Assembly (NCBI GenBank): GCA_947632375.1 | Contig: CANRPF010000001.1 | Coordinates: forward strand, 92,131 to 130,430 | Direction: 5' to 3' | DNA length: 38,300 bases | Origin: an uncultured Bacilli bacterium | GTDB lineage: Bacteria; Bacillota_I; Bacilli_A; RF39; UBA660 | Shown: piece after piece, positions 865 to 12,507 of the stretch | Numbering within the stretch: the first letter of the stretch is position 1 | Layout of the letters: each line of letters opens with the position of its first letter | Position numbers and translations under genes: made by a program | The notes under the pieces: model-generated | The model's database searches: none | Seen by the model: only the letters and a program-made list of their open reading frames with translations | What the model was told of the DNA's origin: nothing

Positions 865-2211
865 TTGAAAGAAAAGATTAAAAAAATAATTAATTACATA
901 TCTGGTAGAAAATTAGTAAAAAACTTTTTGTTAATTTTTACCGGTCAAGGATTAGCTAGTGTCTTTGGTTTGATTTCTACTATTTTAATTATAAAAGCTA
1001 TTGGTTCTAATCAACATGGTATTTTAATAGTAGTTCAAACATATGCAACATTATTTTATAGTTTCTTTTCTTTTAAGACATTCCAGGCATTAATTAAATA
1101 TTTAGCGCAAGCTAAAAAAGATAAAAATAAAGAAGATATAAAAATATATATAAAATGGTCATTCATTTTTGATAGTGTATCATTAATATTAATGTTTGTT
1201 TTTGGAATTTTATTTAAAAATTTCGTTATAGATATTATGAATTGGCCTATAGAAATGGAAAAATATGTAATTTTGTATTTAGCCACACAATTATTTTATA
1301 TACAAGGTACTACAATTGGCGTATTAAGAAGTTATGAAAGATATAATTATGTTATAAAAAGCCAAATAATATCTAATGTTGTCAGATGTATTACCTATGC
1401 AATTTGTTTCTTTTGGTCAAAAAAATTCATATCTTTTTTAATCTCAGAAATGATATCTGTTTTAGTTAATTATTTACTATTAATATATTATACTTATAAA
1501 GTTTTAAAAGAAGAAAAACTATTAGATTTTTATAAAGTTAAATTAAAAAATAAAAAAGATTTCTTTATGTTTAATGTTTATTCTAATATTACATCAACTT
1601 TAGATCTTCCAATAAATCAAGTTACTCAATTAATTATTAATAAATATTTAGGTAACGCAGCTAATTCAGTTTATAGTGTATTTGAAAGATTAGGTTCTAT
1701 TATAAATAAATTAGGTGATCCTATTAATCAAATTATATATCCTGAAATGAGTATAAAAGTTGTTGATAAAGATTATGAAGGTGCTAAATTATTATCAAGA
1801 AAACTAAAGAAGTTAATGTTTTTAATTTTTGCAATATGTTCAGCAGGAACATTGCTAACTTATAAATTATGGTTTCATCTATTTATAGATGATGTTAATA
1901 AATATATTTTTGTATTTATTGTATATTTGGCCTTTGTATCTTATAGTAATTCTGCTATGGGAACGCATAATTTGTTTATGGCTTTAGGATACGTTAAGTT
2001 CAATTTGCCTATATTAATTGTAGTTAATACTATATATTTACTATTTCTATTTTACGCAATACAAAATATAGGTTTACTTGGAGTTATTACAGCTTACTTA
2101 TTACAAGCAGTAGGTATGGTAGTAATTAAGAAAATAATATTAAAGAAAAATGATTATAAAGAATATATGCCTATAAAAAGGAGAACGAAATTATGCCAAA
2201 GTACTCATTAA
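865..2211 (+). CDS. Wzx-like polysaccharide flippase (MATE/MOP family)
   Basis: A 448-residue protein with 12 or more evenly spaced hydrophobic segments and the N-terminal pattern of oligosaccharide flippases (FLLIFTGQGLASVFGLIST). Members of this family move undecaprenyl-diphosphate-linked repeat units across the cytoplasmic membrane. The start is TTG at 865, five bases after a good ribosome-binding site (AAGGGTGAG, 851-859); no ATG fits as well. The gene overlaps the next glycosyltransferase by 19 bp, which points to translational coupling in one operon. The transported substrate cannot be read from sequence. The flippase fold is well supported; the Wzx role rests mainly on the surrounding glycosyltransferases. 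Confidence 0.85.
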   Translation: MKEKIKKIINYISGRKLVKNFLLIFTGQGLASVFGLISTILIIKAIGSNQHGILIVVQTYATLFYSFFSFKTFQALIKYLAQAKKDKNKEDIKIYIKWSFIFDSVSLILMFVFGILFKNFVIDIMNWPIEMEKYVILYLATQLFYIQGTTIGVLRSYERYNYVIKSQIISNVVRCITYAICFFWSKKFISFLISEMISVLVNYLLLIYYTYKVLKEEKLLDFYKVKLKNKKDFFMFNVYSNITSTLDLPINQVTQLIINKYLGNAANSVYSVFERLGSIINKLGDPINQIIYPEMSIKVVDKDYEGAKLLSRKLKKLMFLIFAICSAGTLLTYKLWFHLFIDDVNKYIFVFIVYLAFVSYSNSAMGTHNLFMALGYVKFNLPILIVVNTIYLLFLFYAIQNIGLLGVITAYLLQAVGMVVIKKIILKKNDYKEYMPIKRRTKLCQSTH

Positions 2212-3164
2212 TAATACCGTTTTATAATGTAAAAGATTATATTTTAGAATGTGCAAAAAGTATTTATAAACAAAAATATGATAATTTTGAAGCTATATTT
2301 GTTAATGATGGTTCAAAAGATGAAACGGATTCTATATTAGAAAAATATTTAAATAAAATAAATGATAAACGCTTTAAAAAATATACAAAGAAAAATGGTG
2401 GTGTAGCATCAGCAAGAAATTATGGATTAAAACATGCTAAAGGTGATTATGTATTTTTTATTGATAGTGATGACTTTTTAGATACTAATGCTTTATTAAA
2501 AATAAATGAAGAAATAGAAAAAACAAATCCAGATATCTTAATTATGGATTTTTATGAATATTTTAAAAAAGATAATATGAGAAGATGTTCAGGATTATAT
2601 GATTTAGATACTGATGATATAACCAAAAAATGTTTGCTTTCTCCACCAGCTCCATGGAATAAGGTAATTAAAAGAAGTTTATTAATAGAAAATAATGTAT
2701 TGTTTCCAACAGATTTATGGTATGAAGATTTAGCAACTACTACTAAATTATATATATATACAAATAATATAAAACATTTAGATATGCCACTTTATTATTA
2801 TAGACAATTACCAAATTCTGCTGTAAATAAAATTGATGTAAAAATAATGGATATGATTGATATTCTTTCTATAATATATGATTTTTATGAAGATAATTCA
2901 AAACTAGATTATTATTATAATGAAATTGAAAAAACATTTATATATAATTGCTACTTTGCTATAAATAAATTCTCAAAAAGTAATATAGAAAATAAAGAAA
3001 ATTATCAAAAAAAGATTATAGAATTTTTAAACAATCATTTTAAAAATTGGAAAAAAAATAAATATTTAAAACAAGAAAGAATGGCAACTAGAATATTACT
3101 ATATTCCATGAGAGGAGGAATATATTTAAAGATATTCAATATTTTAAAAAGGAGTATATTATGA
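2193..3164 (+). CDS. Family 2 glycosyltransferase
   Basis: A 323-residue GT-A fold transferase. The N-terminal block is diagnostic: YSLIIPFYNVKDYI, then VNDGSKDET around residue 38, GGVASARNYGLKHAKGDY near 69-86, and the metal-binding DSDD at 91-94. The C-terminal third is Asn/Lys-rich and not diagnostic. GT2 enzymes of this layout add a sugar from a nucleotide donor to a lipid-linked repeat unit at the cytoplasmic face. The ATG lies inside the end of the flippase gene, with an upstream AAAAGGAG as ribosome-binding site, and the stop overlaps the next start by 4 bp. The donor sugar is unknown. Confidence 0.88.
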   Translation: MPKYSLIIPFYNVKDYILECAKSIYKQKYDNFEAIFVNDGSKDETDSILEKYLNKINDKRFKKYTKKNGGVASARNYGLKHAKGDYVFFIDSDDFLDTNALLKINEEIEKTNPDILIMDFYEYFKKDNMRRCSGLYDLDTDDITKKCLLSPPAPWNKVIKRSLLIENNVLFPTDLWYEDLATTTKLYIYTNNIKHLDMPLYYYRQLPNSAVNKIDVKIMDMIDILSIIYDFYEDNSKLDYYYNEIEKTFIYNCYFAINKFSKSNIENKENYQKKIIEFLNNHFKNWKKNKYLKQERMATRILLYSMRGGIYLKIFNILKRSIL

Positions 3165-4276
3165 AAAAAAAGAAAATACTTTTTATTATATGGTCGTTTT
3201 CTTATGGCGGAGGAGCAGAAAGAGTTTTAACTAATATTGTAAATAATTTAAATAAAGAAAAATATGAGATAGATATATTAGAATATTGTTATGCTGGAGT
3301 AAAAAAAGAGCCTATAAATGAAAATATTACTTTGTATCCACCAATAATAGATTATACAAATAAGAAATTTTCAAATAAAATAAAAAATTTTTTAATTGAA
3401 AAGTGTGTACAAATAAAACCTGAAATAATAAGAAAGAAATATTTAAATAAAAAATATGATATTGAAATTGCTTTTAATAATTTAATACCAAGTTTTTTAT
3501 TAGATTATGAAAATGCTAAAACTATATGTTGGGTTCATGGTGCAATATACAACTTAAAAGAAAGAAATAAGTTGTTAGAATATCAAAGAAAATATTTTAA
3601 AAAAGCTGATAGAATTGTAACTATATCAAATATGACTTATGATTCAGTAAAATCTTTATTTCCAGAATTTAAAGAAAAAATATCTATAATAAATAATGGA
3701 TTTCTATTTGATAATATTCTAAAAAGTGCATTAGAAGAAAAAGTAGAAGAAACTGATGTTTTATTTTGTGGAAGATTTGATTCAAATAAAAACCCAATAA
3801 AAATGATTAATATAATAAAAAAAGCAAAAGAGAAAAAAGAAGATATAAAATTAGGTTTTTTAGGACAAGGAGAATTAGAAGAAGAAGTTAAAGAATTAAT
3901 AAAAAAATATAATTTAACTGAAAATGTAAAATTATTTGGATATATAAAAAATCCTTATACTTATATAAAATCAACAAAAATTATGGCTTTAACATCTTTT
4001 TCAGAAGGTTTTCCAACTGTTTTAGTTGAAGGAATGACATTGGGTAAGCCTTTTGTTAGTACGTTAGTTGCAGGTACCGAAGAAATGTCTTTAAATAATA
4101 AATGTGGTTATAGAACAAATGATGATGATGAATTTGCAAATTATATAATCAAGCTTTTAAATGATAAAAAATTGTATAATAAAATGAGTAAAGAATGTGC
4201 TTCTAATGTATTAAGATTTTCTTTAGAAAATCAAATAAATAATATAGAAAATATGATGGAGGAGATTTCTAAATGA
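3161..4276 (+). CDS. Family 4 glycosyltransferase
   Basis: A 371-residue GT-B glycosyltransferase. The N-terminal acceptor domain carries the GGGAERVL glycine-rich loop (about residues 16-23). The C-terminal donor domain shows LFCGRFDSNKNP near 201-212, LGFLGQGELE near 231-240, and the E-x7-E nucleotide-sugar motif as EGFPTVLVE (E282, E290). These are the hallmarks of retaining GT4 enzymes. It starts within the stop region of the GT2 gene and ends in an ATGA overlap with the sulfotransferase-like gene, so the three are translationally coupled. It presumably adds a sugar to the same repeat unit; the specificity is not predictable. Confidence 0.9.
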   Translation: MKKKKILFIIWSFSYGGGAERVLTNIVNNLNKEKYEIDILEYCYAGVKKEPINENITLYPPIIDYTNKKFSNKIKNFLIEKCVQIKPEIIRKKYLNKKYDIEIAFNNLIPSFLLDYENAKTICWVHGAIYNLKERNKLLEYQRKYFKKADRIVTISNMTYDSVKSLFPEFKEKISIINNGFLFDNILKSALEEKVEETDVLFCGRFDSNKNPIKMINIIKKAKEKKEDIKLGFLGQGELEEEVKELIKKYNLTENVKLFGYIKNPYTYIKSTKIMALTSFSEGFPTVLVEGMTLGKPFVSTLVAGTEEMSLNNKCGYRTNDDDEFANYIIKLLNDKKLYNKMSKECASNVLRFSLENQINNIENMMEEISK

Positions 4277-5301
4277 GACAAATTATCGTTACTGCGAGTT
4301 ACATGTTATCTGGTTCTTCAGCTATGACAGATTTAATTAGTGAGTTTAAAAATGTAAATAATAAACATAAGGAATTTGAATATGTTTTCTTGCATTGTCC
4401 TAATGGTGTATTTGATTTAGAAGATAAACTTTTAATTGGAAATAATTCTAATAGAAGTGATGAAGCAATACATTCTTTTAGAGATACTATGAAAGATTTA
4501 TATGATAAAAAATTTTATTGGCCTGGTTATTATAAAAATATTATTTCTGAAGATTTTATGGATATAGTTGATGAATATATAGATTCAATTGTTGATGTTA
4601 AAACTGATAGTTTTTGGTATTATCAAGAAAATCCTACAAATTCTATGAAATTTAAAGCTTTTATATACGCTTTAGTTATTAAATTAACTAATAATAAAGT
4701 TGTTTTAAAAAAGCCATTACGTTATAAAACCATGTTATTATCTTATATTAGTAGTGAAGAATTTTATGATAAAACTAAAATATTTATAAATAATGTAATT
4801 AATAGAATAGATCCAAATACTGATGAAGATATATTACTTGATCAACTTCTACTACCTCATAATGCTTTTAGAGTAAACAATTATTTTGATGATAATTTAA
4901 AAATGATTATTATAGAAAGAGATCCAAGAGATGTATTTTTACTTAATAAATATGTTTTAAATGCTCATTGTAGTGTGGTTCCTTATTCTTTTGATGTAGA
5001 GAAGTTTTGTAAACAATTTAAAGACTTAAGAAGAATAGAAAAAGAAAGTAAATATAAAGGAATATTAAGAGTCAGATTTGAAGATTTAATATATGATTAT
5101 GAAAATACTCGAAATAAAGTTTTAAAATTTCTAGGATATAAAAAAGAGGATCATATTAATCAATTTAGTAGATTTGATCCAAAAAAATCAATAAAAAACA
5201 CTCAAATTTTTAAAAAAGATGAAAAATATAAACGTGAAACAGAATATATTGAAAAAGAATTAAAAGAATTTTTATATGATTTTCCAAAAGAAGATAATTA
5301 A
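4273..5301 (+). CDS. Sulfotransferase-like P-loop protein of the polysaccharide cluster
   Basis: A 342-residue protein beginning with a PAPS-type 5'-phosphosulfate-loop-like segment (VTASYMLSGSSAMTDLI, residues 6-22). Further on is a 3'-phosphate-binding-like segment, IIIERDPRDVFLLNKY (about residues 211-226), followed by VRFEDLIYDYENT and a helical C-terminus, the usual order in sulfotransferase-fold proteins. If active, it would sulfate a sugar of the surface polymer from PAPS; inactive or alternative-substrate members of this fold exist, so the reaction is an inference. It is the last gene before a strong terminator and starts in an ATGA overlap with the GT4 gene. No PAPS-synthesis gene is visible in the window. 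Confidence 0.6.
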   Translation: MRQIIVTASYMLSGSSAMTDLISEFKNVNNKHKEFEYVFLHCPNGVFDLEDKLLIGNNSNRSDEAIHSFRDTMKDLYDKKFYWPGYYKNIISEDFMDIVDEYIDSIVDVKTDSFWYYQENPTNSMKFKAFIYALVIKLTNNKVVLKKPLRYKTMLLSYISSEEFYDKTKIFINNVINRIDPNTDEDILLDQLLLPHNAFRVNNYFDDNLKMIIIERDPRDVFLLNKYVLNAHCSVVPYSFDVEKFCKQFKDLRRIEKESKYKGILRVRFEDLIYDYENTRNKVLKFLGYKKEDHINQFSRFDPKKSIKNTQIFKKDEKYKRETEYIEKELKEFLYDFPKEDN

Positions 5302-5391: not shown

Positions 5392-8300
5392 GTGGATAAA
5401 AAACTAATGAATATATTTATAATATTGTTACCATTTATTGATTTAATAACATCTCTAACAACTAGATTATTTAATTTCTCTATTAGTTTAGGAATAATAA
5501 TAAAATCATTATTTTTACTATATATGTTATATTATATTAGCTTTAAAACATTTTCTAAATATAAAAAAATAGGATTATTTTATATTGCATTTATATTTAT
5601 TTATATCATAGGATATTTTGTAACAAAAATAAATTATATAACTTTAGGAAATATAAAAAATGAACTAACCTATATAGTAAAATTAATATATTATCCAACT
5701 TTATTACCATCCTTATGTTGTTTTTTTGACGATTTTAAATATTCTAAAAAAGAAATTTCTAATTTGATGTTAATAAATCTAATTTTATACACAATATTTT
5801 TAATAATACCATTAATAACAAAAAGTGGTTTTGATTCATATCCAAATCGTCTTGGTGGAACAATTGGTTGGTTCTACTCAGCTAACGAATTATCTGCGAT
5901 ATTAATAATGTTATTTCCTTTTATATATAAAGTATTAAATAAAAATAAATTTTTTGTTATATTACCATTTATCATTATTTTAACAATATCAACTATTGGT
6001 ACTAAAGCATCTATGATAGGATTACTTATAGATTCGTTAATTTTATTGATTATTAGTTTATTCAGTAAAAAAAATAAAAATAGAAATTGGTTATTTATAA
6101 TATTAGCAAGTTTAATATTTAGTTTTAATATATTCGTTTTTTATAATTCTAAATCATTTAGCAATTTAAAAACTTCTATAGATATACAAGAACAAGAAAA
6201 TATAAATGAAGAAAAAGAAGATTTAGAAGATTTACTAAAAGAGCTAGAATCAAATAATAATTCAAAATTAAATAAATTCATGGATAAATATGGAAAAGCT
6301 ATACTTAGTGATAGAGATATATATTTTAAAATAACATATTTATTATATAGAAAAAATTATAATATTAATACATTATTATTTGGTGTAGGATATACAAATA
6401 ACAAAGCAATTAATAGTAAAGCGATAGAAAAATTAATAGAAATTGATCCATTAGATATATATTTTCATTCAGGTTTAATTGCAATTATTATTATCTTGTT
6501 GCCATTCATATATTATTTATTTAAGTTTATAAAAAATAAAAAATTAAATATAAATATATTCTTTTATACTTTAATGTTGGGTATGATTTTTTGTGTTTCA
6601 TTTATAAGTGGTCATACATTGATGGCTCCTGCTGTTAGTTTTTATATAGTTTTATATTTAATTTTAGGTTATATAGAATTAGGATTTATGAATTTTGATG
6701 AAACAAAAAAGATAAAAAAAGGAAAGGTATCAATTTATTCTCTTCATTTAAATTTTGGTGGTATAGAAAGAGATATTTGTAATAAAGCTAATATTTTATC
6801 AAAGATTTACGATGTTGAAATTATTTCTGTATATAAATTAAATAAAGAACCATTTTTTAAAGTTGATGATAAAGTATCTATAAAATATTTAACTAATGTT
6901 ATACCAAATAAATTAGAATTTAAAGAAGCTTTAAAAACAAAAAATATTTTTAAAATACTAAAAGAAGGATTCTATTCTTTAAAAGTTTTAAATATTAAAG
7001 ATAAGGTTATTAAAAAATCTTTGAGAGATTGTAATAGTGAAATAATTATTTCAACAAGAATTGATTTTAGCAAAAAGCTTATTAAGTATAATGATTATAA
7101 TAATATAAAAGTATGTCATGAACATATATATCATAATAATAATAAAAAATATTTTAAAGATTTAAAAAAATTATTAAAGAAAATAGATTATTTAATGCCT
7201 AGCAGTAATTATTTAGCTAGTACGTATAAAAATATGTATACAAACTATAACTATAAGATTGTTACTAATGAAATGTTAGTTGAAACAAATAATAAAATAT
7301 CAGACTTAAAAAATAAAAATATAATTTCAGTTGGTAGACTTAGTAAAGAAAAAGGTTTTGAAGATTTAATTAAATTGTTTTCTAATATTGCTAAAAAACA
7401 TCCAGATTGGATTTTAAATATTGTTGGAGATGGACAATTATTTAATGAACTAAATAATCTTGTTATATCTTTAGGTATGGAAAATAATATAAAATTGTTA
7501 GGTTATAAAACTAGTGATGAATTAAATAAATTATATGAAGAATCTTCTATTTATATAAATACATCTTTTGAGGAATCATTCGGTTTAGTAGCTTTAGAAG
7601 CCATGAGTCATGGATTACCTATACTTGCATATTCTTCTGCAAAAGGAATAGAAGAGATTGTTTTAAAAAACGGAATAATAATTTCAAATAGAAATCAAAA
7701 TAATATGGAAAAAGCTCTTGATGAATTAATTAACGATATTGATTTAAGAAGTAAGTATCAAAAACTATCTTTAGATAATTATAAAAATTTTGATCCTAAA
7801 TTAATAGAAAAAAGAAATATAGAATTTTATAAAAATTTAAAACATAATGATATATTTAATAATATTTATACAGGTTCAAAAAAAGAATTTTATAATGAAA
7901 TTGAGACTAGATTAAAAAATAAAAAGAAAACTTTTATAGTTACTGCAAATCCAGAAACATATATGTTAAGTGAGAAAGATATTGAGATAAATAATATCAT
8001 TAATAATAAAGAAAATTATATAATACCAGATGGAATAGCGGTTGTTAAATTAGCTAATTATTATGGATATGAAATAAAGGAACGTATTACCGGAGTAGAT
8101 TTATCTTTACATTTATTAAATTTAGCTAATAAAAACAAATATAAAGTTTATCTTTATGGTTCAAAAGAAGAAGTTATTAATAAATTAGAAGAAGTTATTA
8201 ATAAAAAATATCCTAATATTAAATTAGTAGGAGCTACTAATGGATATATAAAAGATATAGATGGTGTAATGAACTATATATTGACAACTAAACCTGATAT

Positions 8301-8562
8301 TGTTTTAATAGCACTTGGAATTCCAAAACAAGAAAAAATAATAAATAAATATATTAAAAGTTTTGATAAAGGAATATTTGTTGGTGTAGGTGGGTCATTT
8401 GATGTATTAAGTGGTAGTAAAAAAAGAGCACCTTCTATATTTATAAAATTTAATTTAGAATGGCTTTATAGAATTATGTTAGAACCTAAAAGAATAGGAC
8501 GTTTTATAAAGTATAATGTAAGATTTTTAATAAAAGAAATATTAGAAAAGAAGAGTAGATAA
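5392..8562 (+). CDS. Trifunctional fusion: Wzy-like polymerase + GT4 + WecG/TagA (GT26)
   Basis: A 1056-residue single reading frame with three modules. Residues about 5-430 are an O-antigen-polymerase/ligase-like membrane domain with around ten hydrophobic segments and a large charged loop (about 255-345) ending in LLFGVGYTNN and IDPLDIYFHSG. Residues about 443-815 are a GT4 transferase: NFGGIERDI near the start, SVGRLSKEKGF, and the E-x7-E motif in EESFGLVALE (E728, E736). Residues about 845-1050 are a WecG/TagA/CpsF-type GT26 domain: VTANPET, IPDGIAVV (putative catalytic Asp at 880), RITGVDL, LGIPKQEK, GVGGSFDVLSG, KRAPSIF and LEWLYRIMLEPKR. GT26 enzymes add ManNAc or a similar sugar to undecaprenyl-PP-GlcNAc, so one polypeptide may both start and polymerise a wall polymer. 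It begins with GTG at 5392 behind TGAGGAAGTGA; the next gene starts one base after its stop. The continuous frame argues against two genes. Confidence 0.88.
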   Translation: MDKKLMNIFIILLPFIDLITSLTTRLFNFSISLGIIIKSLFLLYMLYYISFKTFSKYKKIGLFYIAFIFIYIIGYFVTKINYITLGNIKNELTYIVKLIYYPTLLPSLCCFFDDFKYSKKEISNLMLINLILYTIFLIIPLITKSGFDSYPNRLGGTIGWFYSANELSAILIMLFPFIYKVLNKNKFFVILPFIIILTISTIGTKASMIGLLIDSLILLIISLFSKKNKNRNWLFIILASLIFSFNIFVFYNSKSFSNLKTSIDIQEQENINEEKEDLEDLLKELESNNNSKLNKFMDKYGKAILSDRDIYFKITYLLYRKNYNINTLLFGVGYTNNKAINSKAIEKLIEIDPLDIYFHSGLIAIIIILLPFIYYLFKFIKNKKLNINIFFYTLMLGMIFCVSFISGHTLMAPAVSFYIVLYLILGYIELGFMNFDETKKIKKGKVSIYSLHLNFGGIERDICNKANILSKIYDVEIISVYKLNKEPFFKVDDKVSIKYLTNVIPNKLEFKEALKTKNIFKILKEGFYSLKVLNIKDKVIKKSLRDCNSEIIISTRIDFSKKLIKYNDYNNIKVCHEHIYHNNNKKYFKDLKKLLKKIDYLMPSSNYLASTYKNMYTNYNYKIVTNEMLVETNNKISDLKNKNIISVGRLSKEKGFEDLIKLFSNIAKKHPDWILNIVGDGQLFNELNNLVISLGMENNIKLLGYKTSDELNKLYEESSIYINTSFEESFGLVALEAMSHGLPILAYSSAKGIEEIVLKNGIIISNRNQNNMEKALDELINDIDLRSKYQKLSLDNYKNFDPKLIEKRNIEFYKNLKHNDIFNNIYTGSKKEFYNEIETRLKNKKKTFIVTANPETYMLSEKDIEINNIINNKENYIIPDGIAVVKLANYYGYEIKERITGVDLSLHLLNLANKNKYKVYLYGSKEEVINKLEEVINKKYPNIKLVGATNGYIKDIDGVMNYILTTKPDIVLIALGIPKQEKIINKYIKSFDKGIFVGVGGSFDVLSGSKKRAPSIFIKFNLEWLYRIMLEPKRIGRFIKYNVRFLIKEILEKKSR

Positions 8563-8563
8563 T

Positions 8564-9883
8564 ATGAATTTTTTAAAAAAAGTACTAGGAATAAGCATTC
8601 TAATAATTTTAGGTTTAATAATTGGTTGTGGAAGTTTTGAAAATGGTATTTTGTTAACGTTATTATCCTTTGTAATTATATATTTATTTGTAAAAAAAGT
8701 GAATATTAAAAGATTTTATATTCTATTAATTATTATTAGTTTAGTTACAAAAATTACATTTGTTTTAATAGTTGATACTCCTATTTTAGATGATTATTAT
8801 ATAATGTGGGAAGCTGCAACTAATTTAATTAATGGTAATAAAAGCTTTTTAAATGATTATTATTTTATAACTTGGGGATATCAATTATTTCATGTATTTT
8901 ATGAAGCATTAGTTTTAAAAGTTATTAACAATATTATTGTTCTTAAAATACTTAATTGTATTTATTCAACAGTAATTACTTTGTTAATATATAAAATATC
9001 TGCTAAATTAACAAACGAATCGTCTGGTAGAATAGTTAGTTTACTTTATGTAATATCATTATATCCATTATATTTAAATTCTGTTTTAGGAAATCAACAA
9101 TTATCTTTAATGTTAACATTAATTGGAGTATATTTATTTCTATTTAAAAAAACTAATTTAAAAAATATAATATTCTTTGCACTATTGTTAGGAATAAGTC
9201 ATTTAGAAAGACCAGAAGCAATTATATATATATTAACAGCAATCATATACTTAATATTAAATAACAAAAAGAAAATTGATACTTTTAAATATATTATAGT
9301 AATGTTATTAATATTTATGTTTGTTATAAAATTTCCATCATATATTATGATAAAAAGTGGAGTAAATGAAATTGGATTTGCTAATAAAAATCCTGAATGG
9401 AAATTTTTGTTAGGACTTAATTATGATACTTTTGGTAAATATAGTTTAGATGATGAAGTGTTTTTTGATAATAAATATGATGAAATTAATGAAATAAAAC
9501 GAAGAATTAAAAGGGTAGATAAATTACCTAATTTAATGTATCAAAAAATTAAACTTATATGGTTATATAATGATTTAGGTAATGCTATAAATAACAAACA
9601 ATTTTCTAATAACTTTATGAATCTCGCTATTAATTATGTAAAAGTTATGAATTATGTAATCATTGTTATTGCTTTATTTGGTGTTTATAAAAGAAAAGAT
9701 AAATTAATTCAATATGAATTTTTTATAATTAATTTAATTTTATATTTTGGAGTATATTTATTTATTGAAGTAAGCACAAGATATTATTTTAATCCAAATG
9801 TTACAGTAATGATATTGTCTTCTTTAGGTATAAGTATATTATTAGAAAAAACAAATAAGTTTTTTAATAGGAGTTTAAAATGA
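8564..9883 (+). CDS. GT-C membrane glycosyltransferase (GT39/ArnT-like)
   Basis: A 439-residue polytopic protein with about ten hydrophobic segments. The first extracytoplasmic loop carries the acidic pair expected of GT-C enzymes (PILDDYYIMWEAATNL, around residues 73-88), followed by GYQLFHVFY and later HLERPEAIIY. Enzymes of this fold use polyprenyl-phosphate-linked sugars on the outer face of the membrane to modify wall polymers, lipids or proteins. The gene follows the polymerase fusion by one base and overlaps the next gene in an ATGA. With the GtrA-type and GtrB-type proteins downstream it could supply the transfer step of a three-component glycosylation system. The acceptor is unknown. 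Confidence 0.75.
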   Translation: MNFLKKVLGISILIILGLIIGCGSFENGILLTLLSFVIIYLFVKKVNIKRFYILLIIISLVTKITFVLIVDTPILDDYYIMWEAATNLINGNKSFLNDYYFITWGYQLFHVFYEALVLKVINNIIVLKILNCIYSTVITLLIYKISAKLTNESSGRIVSLLYVISLYPLYLNSVLGNQQLSLMLTLIGVYLFLFKKTNLKNIIFFALLLGISHLERPEAIIYILTAIIYLILNNKKKIDTFKYIIVMLLIFMFVIKFPSYIMIKSGVNEIGFANKNPEWKFLLGLNYDTFGKYSLDDEVFFDNKYDEINEIKRRIKRVDKLPNLMYQKIKLIWLYNDLGNAINNKQFSNNFMNLAINYVKVMNYVIIVIALFGVYKRKDKLIQYEFFIINLILYFGVYLFIEVSTRYYFNPNVTVMILSSLGISILLEKTNKFFNRSLK

Positions 9884-10484: not shown

Positions 10485-10495
10485 ATGATTGTATG

Positions 10496-10504
10496 TGTTA
10501 TACT
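10496..10504 (+). promoter_or_regulatory. Extended -10 promoter abutting the RBS of the HAD-GtrA gene
   Basis: TGT-TATACT is a near-consensus extended -10. The predicted start site at about 10511 coincides with the first base of AGGAAGTG, the ribosome-binding site of the gene starting at 10523. No good -35 is present. Confidence 0.5.
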
Positions 10505-10522
10505 TTTTATAGGAAGTGCAGT

Positions 10523-11542
10523 ATGAAATTATATGTTTATGACTTTGACGGAACTATATTTGATGGAGATTCTTCTTATAAATTCATATTTTTTTTAATG
10601 AAAAAAAAGAAAAAATTATTATTTAAATTACCTAAGATGGGTTTATTTGCAATAAAGTATAAAATGAAATTAATATCAAAAGAAGAAATGAAAGAATGTT
10701 TTTTCTCTATTGTTAAATATTTTGATAATATAGATTCTTTAGTAGAAGAGTTTTGGAGTATTTATGATAAGAATATTAAAGATTTTTTTAAAGAGAAGAA
10801 GTCTCATAAAAATGACATAATCGCTTCAGCTAGTCCATTTTTTTTGTTAGAACCTATTAAAAATAAATATAAAGTGATGGATTTATTTGCAAGTCCTATA
10901 GATAAGAAAACAGGAAAATATAATGGAATAAATTGTTATGGTGTTGAAAAACTAAGACTTTTTAACAATAAATATCCGAATTTTATAATAGAGGAAATGT
11001 ATAGTGATAATGCAGTAGCAGATCGTCCATTATTAGAAGAGGCTAAGAAATCTTTTATAGTAAAAAAAAATAAAATTATACCATATTCAGAAACAAAAAA
11101 TAAAAGTATTTTTAAAAAATTTATTAATTGGTGTTTTAATATATATCATAAAAATGAAGAAATTTATAATTACTTGATTGTTGGAGTACTTACAACACTA
11201 GTTTCATTAGTTGTTTATTATGCTTGTGTACTTACATTTTTAAATCCAAAAAATCCAATAGAGCTTCAAGTGGCAAATATATTATCTTGGGTAGTAGCGG
11301 TTGTATTTGCATATGTAACTAATCGAGTATTTGTTTTTAAAAGTAAAGAAAAAAATAAACTTAAGGAAGCAACAAAGTTTGTTTCTTCTAGATTAATAAC
11401 ACTAGTTTTGGATATGCTTACTATGTTTATATTTGTAAGTTTATTGCATTTAAATGATAAAATTGGAAAAGTTGTATCTCAAATTATTGTTATAGTAGGA
11501 AATTATATTATTAGCAAATTGTTTGTATTTAAAAATAAGTAG
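10523..11542 (+). CDS. HAD phosphatase-GtrA fusion membrane protein
   Basis: A 339-residue two-domain protein. Residues 1-190 are a HAD-superfamily (SerB/HAD-IB-like) phosphatase: DFDGT at 7-11 (nucleophile D7, acid D9), IIASASP as motif II, and MYSDNAVADRPLLE as motif IV. Residues about 205-339 are a GtrA-like domain with four hydrophobic segments (YNYLIVGVLTTLVSLVVYYA, then FAYVTNRVFVFKS, and a repeat ending ISKLFVFKN). GtrA proteins are thought to help move undecaprenyl-phosphate-linked sugars across the membrane; the HAD part could remove a phosphate from a lipid or sugar intermediate, which is inference. An upstream in-frame ATG at 10493 lies before the predicted transcription start, so the ATG at 10523 behind AGGAAGTG is preferred. 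GtrB follows 14 bp downstream. Confidence 0.82.
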   Translation: MKLYVYDFDGTIFDGDSSYKFIFFLMKKKKKLLFKLPKMGLFAIKYKMKLISKEEMKECFFSIVKYFDNIDSLVEEFWSIYDKNIKDFFKEKKSHKNDIIASASPFFLLEPIKNKYKVMDLFASPIDKKTGKYNGINCYGVEKLRLFNNKYPNFIIEEMYSDNAVADRPLLEEAKKSFIVKKNKIIPYSETKNKSIFKKFINWCFNIYHKNEEIYNYLIVGVLTTLVSLVVYYACVLTFLNPKNPIELQVANILSWVVAVVFAYVTNRVFVFKSKEKNKLKEATKFVSSRLITLVLDMLTMFIFVSLLHLNDKIGKVVSQIIVIVGNYIISKLFVFKNK

Positions 11543-11556
11543 TAAGAGGGTTTGTC

Positions 11557-12507
11557 ATGAAAAATAAAAAATGTATATTATATATTGTAGTACCTTGTTA
11601 TAATGAAGAAGAAGTTTTACCAATTTCTAGTGAAATTTTAAAAAATAAAATAAATGATTTAATAGATAAAAAAGTTATAAATAAAAAAAGTAAAATATTA
11701 TTTGTAGATGATGGTTCAAAAGATAATACGTGGAATTTGATAGAAAAATTTAATAAAGAAAATGATTTATTTAGTGGAATAAAATTATCTAAGAATAAGG
11801 GACATCAAATTGCTCTATTAGCAGGTTTAGTTTATTCTAAAGATTTTGCAGATATAACTATTAGTATTGATGCTGATTTACAAGATGATGTAGATGCAAT
11901 CGATAAGATGATTGAAGAGTATAAAAATGGTTCTTATGTTGTTTATGGTGTTAGAAGTTCTAGAAAAAAAGATAGTTTCTTTAAACGTAATTCTGCTCAA
12001 GCATTTTATCATGTTATGAATAAAATGGGCACAAATGTTATTTATAATCATGCTGATTTTAGATTATTGAGTAAAGAAGTATTAGAATGCTTAAGTGAGT
12101 ATGGTGAAACAAATTTATTTTTACGAGGAATTGTACCAGAAATAGGTTATAAAAGTAGCATAGTTTATTATGAGAGAAAAGAAAGACTTGCTGGAGAATC
12201 TAAATATCCATTAAAAAAAATGCTTTATTTTGCAATTGATGGAATTACTTCTTTTAGTGTAAAGCCTTTAAAATTAATAACATATATTGGATTATTAATT
12301 GCTGTATTCAGTTTTGCTATTATGGTATATACCTTATGTGTTAAGTTTGCTGGTCGAACAGTTCAAGGGTGGACTTTCATTATGATTTCAATATGGTTAA
12401 TAGGTGGAATACAAATGTTGTGTTTAGGAATTATAGGTGAATATATAGGTAAAACTTATAGTGAATCTAAAAAACGTCCTAGATATTTTATAGAAAAAAC
12501 TTTGTAA
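11557..12507 (+). CDS. GtrB/DPM1-type polyprenyl-phosphate glycosyltransferase
   Basis: A 316-residue GT2 enzyme with the dolichol-phosphate-mannose-synthase layout: VVPCYNEEEVLP at 11-22, VDDGSKDNTW at 50-59, the metal-binding DADLQD at 105-110, and NHADFRLLSKEVLE later. Two C-terminal membrane segments (ITYIGLLIAVFSFAIMVYTL and WTFIMISIWLIGGIQMLCLG) and IGEYIGKTYSESKKRPRY complete the GtrB/CsbB pattern. It would load a sugar from a nucleotide donor onto undecaprenyl phosphate on the inner face. Its place directly after a GtrA-containing protein, with a GT-C enzyme two genes upstream, fits a three-component glycosylation pathway. No hairpin terminator follows, so transcripts may run into the tRNA gene. 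Confidence 0.9.
   Translation: MKNKKCILYIVVPCYNEEEVLPISSEILKNKINDLIDKKVINKKSKILFVDDGSKDNTWNLIEKFNKENDLFSGIKLSKNKGHQIALLAGLVYSKDFADITISIDADLQDDVDAIDKMIEEYKNGSYVVYGVRSSRKKDSFFKRNSAQAFYHVMNKMGTNVIYNHADFRLLSKEVLECLSEYGETNLFLRGIVPEIGYKSSIVYYERKERLAGESKYPLKKMLYFAIDGITSFSVKPLKLITYIGLLIAVFSFAIMVYTLCVKFAGRTVQGWTFIMISIWLIGGIQMLCLGIIGEYIGKTYSESKKRPRYFIEKTL

Follow-up and report, generated by a model that had tools for sequence, protein, structure and literature searches.

The window, a stretch of 38,300 nucleotides from an uncultured gut member of the Bacilli, encodes a single protein at 5392-8562 on the forward strand, in which a Wzy-like membrane domain, a GT4 glycosyltransferase and a WecG/TagA-type (GT26) glycosyltransferase follow each other in one open reading frame of 1056 amino acids. 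The same protein, again as one uninterrupted ORF, was found in three further genomes of the genus (G002, G003 and G004) with 57-60% identity, which brings the species that have it to four. Judged from sequence comparisons, it is rather probably a trifunctional enzyme that serves a surface polysaccharide pathway of the Wzx/Wzy type.

Three domains in one reading frame

The frame begins with the start codon GTG. When its own bases were shuffled 300 times, the longest stop-free run was 100 codons, compared to the 1056 amino acids of the actual frame. Pfam matches were obtained in the order O-antigen_lig PF13425 (residues 3-430, E-value 1.6e-50), Glycos_transf_1 PF00534 (638-790, 4e-34) and Glyco_tran_WecG PF03808 (875-1038, about 2e-52), all of them far above the family cut-offs. 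The domain search thus agrees with the original prediction, which had proposed these three domains in a frame of this length, tethered in one protein, and the recurrence of the intact frame in the other genomes of the genus supports it further, as a lack of such relatives had been named in advance as a refutation. The border between Wzy and GT4 was found near 6710, close to the 6715 predicted; the border between GT4 and WecG lies at 7840-7890, and the predicted 7930 was slightly late. The features of the protein are:

5392-8562, + strand: Wzy-like/GT4/WecG three-domain protein, 1056 aa (frame and Pfam; kept in G002, G003 and G004)
5392-6693, + strand: domain 1, O-antigen ligase/Wzy-like membrane domain with 12 predicted TM helices, N-in/C-in (PF13425, hydropathy and helices)
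6178-6474, + strand: long outer loop TM9-TM10, residues 263-361, carrying R308, E350 and D352 (hydropathy, helices and alignment)
6712-7839, + strand: domain 2, GT4 transferase of GT-B fold, residues 441-816 (PF00534, PglJ profile over the whole domain, best fold match 6eji)
7573-7599, + strand: EX7E motif with E728 and E736 (alignment)
7849-8559, + strand: domain 3, WecG/TagA/CpsF (GT26) transferase including the C-terminal appendage, residues 820-1056 (PF03808, E-value 1.8e-52; TarA 7mpk, E-value 6.6e-32)
8029-8031, + strand: catalytic Asp D880, corresponding to TarA D65 (alignment)
8443-8559, + strand: C-terminal appendage with R1027, R1034 and R1037, corresponding to TarA R214, R221 and R224 (alignment; role from PMC6493773)

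The membrane domain is predicted to span the membrane about 12 times with both ends inside, which places both glycosyltransferase domains on the inner side and the conserved Wzy loop outside. This loop, whose presence had been predicted, covers about 100 residues, and a large outer loop in a PF13425-type membrane domain is as expected for a Wzy-type polymerase. D17, R308, G331, E350, D352, G361 and G407 were invariant in an alignment of 38 family members. ‘Wzy-like’ is a family-level call, since PF13425 holds both polymerases and ligases. AlphaFold models, built from shallow alignments, were of low confidence for this part (whole protein, mean 68.8, with the Wzy part mostly at 40-80; Wzy domain alone, pLDDT 58.6). 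This poor Wzy model had no fold match in the PDB, and a profile search of PDB sequences with the domain gave no meaningful match; therefore, structure does not separate polymerase from ligase here.

The middle domain belongs to GT4 according to its GT-B fold, the Glycos_transf_1 profile and the EX7E motif. It matches the profile of PglJ along its length and its best fold match is 6eji, which we take to be PglH, so the domain probably acts on a lipid-linked acceptor. PglH and PglJ of Campylobacter differ from it in that they are not tethered to another enzyme and serve protein N-glycosylation.

The C-terminal domain scored 178 bits against the WecG/TagA/CpsF profile (cut-off 27.4). Its closest solved relative is TarA of Thermoanaerobacter (7mpk), the alignment extending over residues 841-1054. 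T37, D65, R214, R221 and R224, important residues of TarA/TagA (PMC6493773), correspond to T851, D880, R1027, R1034 and R1037 and are all kept. The intact GT4 and GT26 motifs of the original prediction were recovered in the alignments, with E728 and E736 forming EX7E and D880 lying in PDG. The C-terminal appendage, which TagA uses for membrane binding and for completing its active site (PMC6493773), is present and free at the protein end. An assignment as TarA proper was rejected because the NCBIfam equivalog score is 181.7 bits with a cut-off of 350, and no epimerase was found in the genus.

In detail, no match to UDP-GlcNAc 2-epimerase (PF02350) was obtained in G000, G001, G002 and G004, and the sole PF02350 match in the fifth genome of the genus, G003, is CDP-glycerol-transferase-like and not a 2-epimerase. 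Outside the genus, 9 of 12 relatives have a full-length UDP-GlcNAc 2-epimerase, often within the same cluster. Hence, UDP-ManNAc may not be the donor, and the WecG domain may transfer a sugar other than ManNAc, although T851 is TarA-like. The Thr at this position is Asn in 8 of 9 Wzy-WecG proteins.

The GT4/WecG border was scanned for internal start codons from which WecG could be translated on its own. No in-frame ATG, GTG or TTG was seen there in the window or in the fusion of G004, and one ATG each in the fusions of G002 and G003, for which such translation is rejected less firmly.

The gene cluster and the proposed function

The genes surrounding the fusion are:

865-2211, + strand: Wzx-type flippase (PF01943), probable partner of the fusion (Pfam; the L057 cluster also has such a gene)
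2193-3164, + strand: GT2 glycosyltransferase (Pfam; 31% to the L057 gene)
3161-4276, + strand: second, separate GT4 (Pfam; 46% to the L057 gene)
4273-5301, + strand: sulfotransferase-like gene (PF00685; 48-51% to genes in the L057 and L041 clusters)
8564-9883, + strand: PMT_2-type GT-C transferase (Pfam; kept downstream in G002 and G004)
10493-11542, + strand: HAD-GtrA fusion (Pfam; about 70% in G003 and G004)
11557-12507, + strand: GT2 of GtrB/PgfS type (profile matches; 65% in G004)

In the order of the cluster, an L,D-transpeptidase-type gene comes between the PMT_2-type GT-C and HAD-GtrA. The contig also carries a TagO/WecA-type gene (PF00953), which lies about 18 kb upstream of the fusion (contig positions 79263-80318; L032:5133-6188) and is 51-56% identical to genes in related clusters. 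One LCP gene was found in the genome. With the PF01943 flippase and the PF00953 transferase, the window genes, TagO/WecA and LCP provide the components of a Wzx/Wzy pathway. The PMT_2-type GT-C probably decorates the polymer outside, and the sulfotransferase-like gene may mean that the polymer of this gut bacterium is sulfated. HAD-GtrA adjoins the GtrB-like GT2 and the GT-C, and the three together resemble a system that decorates the polymer on the outside.

The surroundings differ in part between genomes. ABC-transporter genes were found near the fusion in G003 and G004, thus export there may not proceed by Wzx. Near the fusion of G003, genes for a CDP-glycerol transferase (PF04464) and an IspD-type cytidylyltransferase are present as well, and a second, separate Wzy-like gene lies immediately upstream of it (L034:10734-12110).

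In the proposed pathway, a separate TagO/WecA-type enzyme would make the Und-PP-sugar. The unit would then be extended at the inner face, where the C-terminal WecG domain would transfer the second sugar and the middle GT4 domain a later one. The separate Wzx would flip the repeat unit, and the N-terminal Wzy domain would polymerise the units at the outer face. The fusion would keep both transferases at the membrane beside the polymerase and may match the supply of units to polymer growth. The domain order in the protein is the reverse of the proposed reaction order, which counts against this reading.

The original prediction went further and suggested coupled initiation, elongation and polymerisation. 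Initiation has to be taken out of this claim, because the sugar-1-phosphate transferase that it requires is the separate PF00953 gene and both WecG and GT4 act after that step. Physical coupling may be inferred from the recurrent fusion of Wzy with WecG described below. Since the transferases lie inside and Wzy outside, with a separate Wzx between them, direct hand-over of substrate from transferase to polymerase is excluded; any coupling would act only by proximity and a fixed ratio.

Tethering may also bear on the regulation of WecG. The dimer of free TagA is inactive, and the enzyme has to be recruited to the membrane for activity; A72 was named as a residue of the dimer interface (PMC6493773). 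Of 18 WecG proteins without a Wzy part, 15 have Ala at the corresponding position; the four three-domain proteins, which form one clade and are small in number, have L, S, T and C there. This suggests relaxed constraint at the dimer-interface position in the fusions, within the limits of these four sequences. Attachment to a 12-helix protein would hold WecG permanently at the membrane and may make the membrane-driven dimer-to-monomer switch of free TagA unnecessary.

Origin of the fusion and alternative readings

An unfused counterpart was found in UBA3620 (L057), whose cluster contains, in this order, Wzx, a sulfotransferase (48%), GT4 (46%), GT2 (31%), Wzy-GT4, WecG, GT-C, GT2, UDP-GlcNAc 2-epimerase and TagO/WecA. 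The separate WecG, 54% identical to the WecG domain of the window, starts 67 bp after Wzy-GT4. The fusion therefore equals this gene set without the WecG border. According to the trees below, it arose stepwise, first by joining of Wzy and GT4, after which WecG was added by loss of the short intergenic gap.

A search of 386 genomes of the family with the PF03808 profile gave 62 over the cut-off, and several genera contributed long frames. Among the long frames, Wzy-GT4-WecG occurs in four genomes, all of this genus, and Wzy-WecG in eight genomes of the family plus one carrying an extra sulfatase domain. The family also contains WecG with a GT-C-like domain, WecG with a DHHW domain and one GT-WecG. 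Outside the family, WecG frames longer than 506 aa were found neither in the class sample (395 genomes) nor in the phylum sample (392 genomes). In the WecG tree, the three-domain proteins form a clade (98/98), and the main Wzy-WecG clade and the protein of G408 are placed apart. The Wzy tree agrees: it places the three-domain proteins beside a Wzy-GT4 protein from G011 (100/98), with both kinds of Wzy-WecG apart. These separated positions imply at least three independent fusions of Wzy with WecG in the family, whereby the fusion counts rest on samples of genomes.

This bears on the possibility that adjacent operon genes were fused by chance, the three domains being active, independent of each other, and the join functionally meaningless. 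Fusions of glycan genes are many in the lineage (Wzy-GT2, Wzy-GtrA, Wzy-Alg14-like, WecG-DHHW, GT2-GT4, GT8-GT2-pyruvyltransferase), the genes of the unfused counterpart are already adjacent and in order, and the GT4 tree, in which some nodes are weakly supported, requires at least seven changes between fusion and separation, so that fusion is reversible. However, Wzy and WecG were joined independently at least three times and the join was retained within the genus across 57-60% protein identity. We regard a neutral fusion as a serious but doubtful explanation.

A second alternative concerns the product. Like TarA, the WecG domain may act once for each chain to form the GlcNAc-ManNAc linkage unit, in which case the O-antigen-ligase domain may join or ligate a teichoic-type polymer instead of polymerising repeat units. 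TarA is indeed the best match of the domain in both NCBIfam and PDB, ligases fall within PF13425, the genome has an LCP gene, and PF04464, the IspD-type cytidylyltransferase and ABC-transporter genes lie near the fusion of G003. On the other hand, the window cluster contains Wzx and several glycosyltransferases, with no teichoic polymerase among the genes scanned, the TarA equivalog cut-off is not reached, and the 2-epimerase was not found in the genus. A linkage unit made once per chain also fits poorly with a one-to-one tie of transferase and polymerase. We consider this reading unlikely, and the Wzx/Wzy-type enzyme is preferred.

An artefact of assembly or contamination can practically be dismissed: the assembly of the window is 9% contaminated and consists of 132 contigs, but although the genomes compared are MAGs, the same join in one frame in three more of them, with the flanking genes downstream (GT-C, HAD-GtrA, GT2) partly conserved too, makes a chimera very unlikely. 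No fusion was seen in a fifth genome of the genus, which is 78% complete.

Further joinings were observed. A protein of 1207 aa in G051 (L043:6855-10478) combines Wzy, WecG and a sulfatase with an LtaS-like end. WecG-DHHW, Wzy-GT2, Wzy-GtrA, Wzy-Alg14-like and WecG with a membrane GT-C-like part are encoded at L042:10142-12013, L042:7623-10142, L047:10013-11776, L050:10312-12150 and L102:6016-8229, and a GT8-GT2-pyruvyl transferase fusion of 992 aa is found in G011 (L036:4232-7210).

Polymerase exchange and known systems

Three sets of Wzy-GT4 proteins of the family were compared (L057, L113, L114, L041, L039, L055, L056, L058, L059 and L060). Their GT4 domains are 54-66% identical between sets and belong to one supported clade in the GT4 tree (99/100), whereas the Wzy domains share only 17-22% identity between sets and at least 50% within each set. 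In four such clusters, WecG is 64-82% identical. A conserved GT4 with a strongly divergent Wzy indicates that the polymerase module was exchanged in front of a stable GT4. Such a swap before a conserved transferase would be a clean natural route to altered surface polysaccharides. On this basis, we tentatively propose, as a possibility that may well not hold, a modular surface-polysaccharide synthase, in which GT4 and WecG would form a conserved chassis, divergent polymerase modules would be swapped, tethering would replace the membrane-recruitment switch of free TagA, and one protein would govern both the making of units and their polymerisation.

The same GT4 is joined to another N-terminal domain of about 320 residues at L061:1961-4042, L051:2608-4656, L062:9164-11254 and L063:207-2264. 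In the two examined (L061 and L051), 10-11 helices are predicted, and the domain of L061 has no Pfam match. This domain may represent a polymerase that lacks the outer loop, or one that has degenerated.

In the enterobacterial common antigen pathway, WecA starts the lipid-linked unit, WecG adds the second sugar, WecF the third, and WzyE polymerises. WecG, WecF and WzyE thus resemble the fusion, in its proposed roles, in providing second sugar, later sugar and Wzy polymerisation, but they are three separate genes, WecF is not a GT4 enzyme and WzyE belongs to GT120. TarA/TagA (Thermoanaerobacter italicus, Bacillus subtilis; GT26) shares the aligned region and catalytic residues given above, but works as a free enzyme that is recruited to the membrane and is inactive as a dimer (PMC6493773), whereas WecG in the fusion is permanently tethered and has L, S, T or C at the A72 position.

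A published Wzy or O-antigen-ligase protein fused to WecG was not found in the open-licence literature. The nearest precedent is WadA of Brucella and Mesorhizobium, in which a GT121 O-antigen ligase is fused with a GT25 transferase and the two have been interpreted as acting in a coupled way (PMC10920833). Both are membrane GT-C enzymes using a lipid-PP-oligosaccharide and fused to a soluble glycosyltransferase. WadA, however, is a lipopolysaccharide ligase of Gram-negatives with two domains including GT25, whereas the present fusion has three domains with GT4 and GT26 and occurs in gut Bacilli; its Pfam matches are GT4 and GT26, with no GT25, and it is not a WadA-like bimodular ligase (GT121 plus GT25).

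For Wzx/Wzy pathways, it is a largely unsettled question how the making of repeat units inside keeps pace with their polymerisation outside. Here, a natural fusion sets a one-to-one ratio and offers a single protein to purify. At least three similar joinings in the family hint that the steps gain from being kept together, and their recurrence between Wzy and WecG within one family suggests that both steps may be coupled in other bacteria, where the genes are separate.
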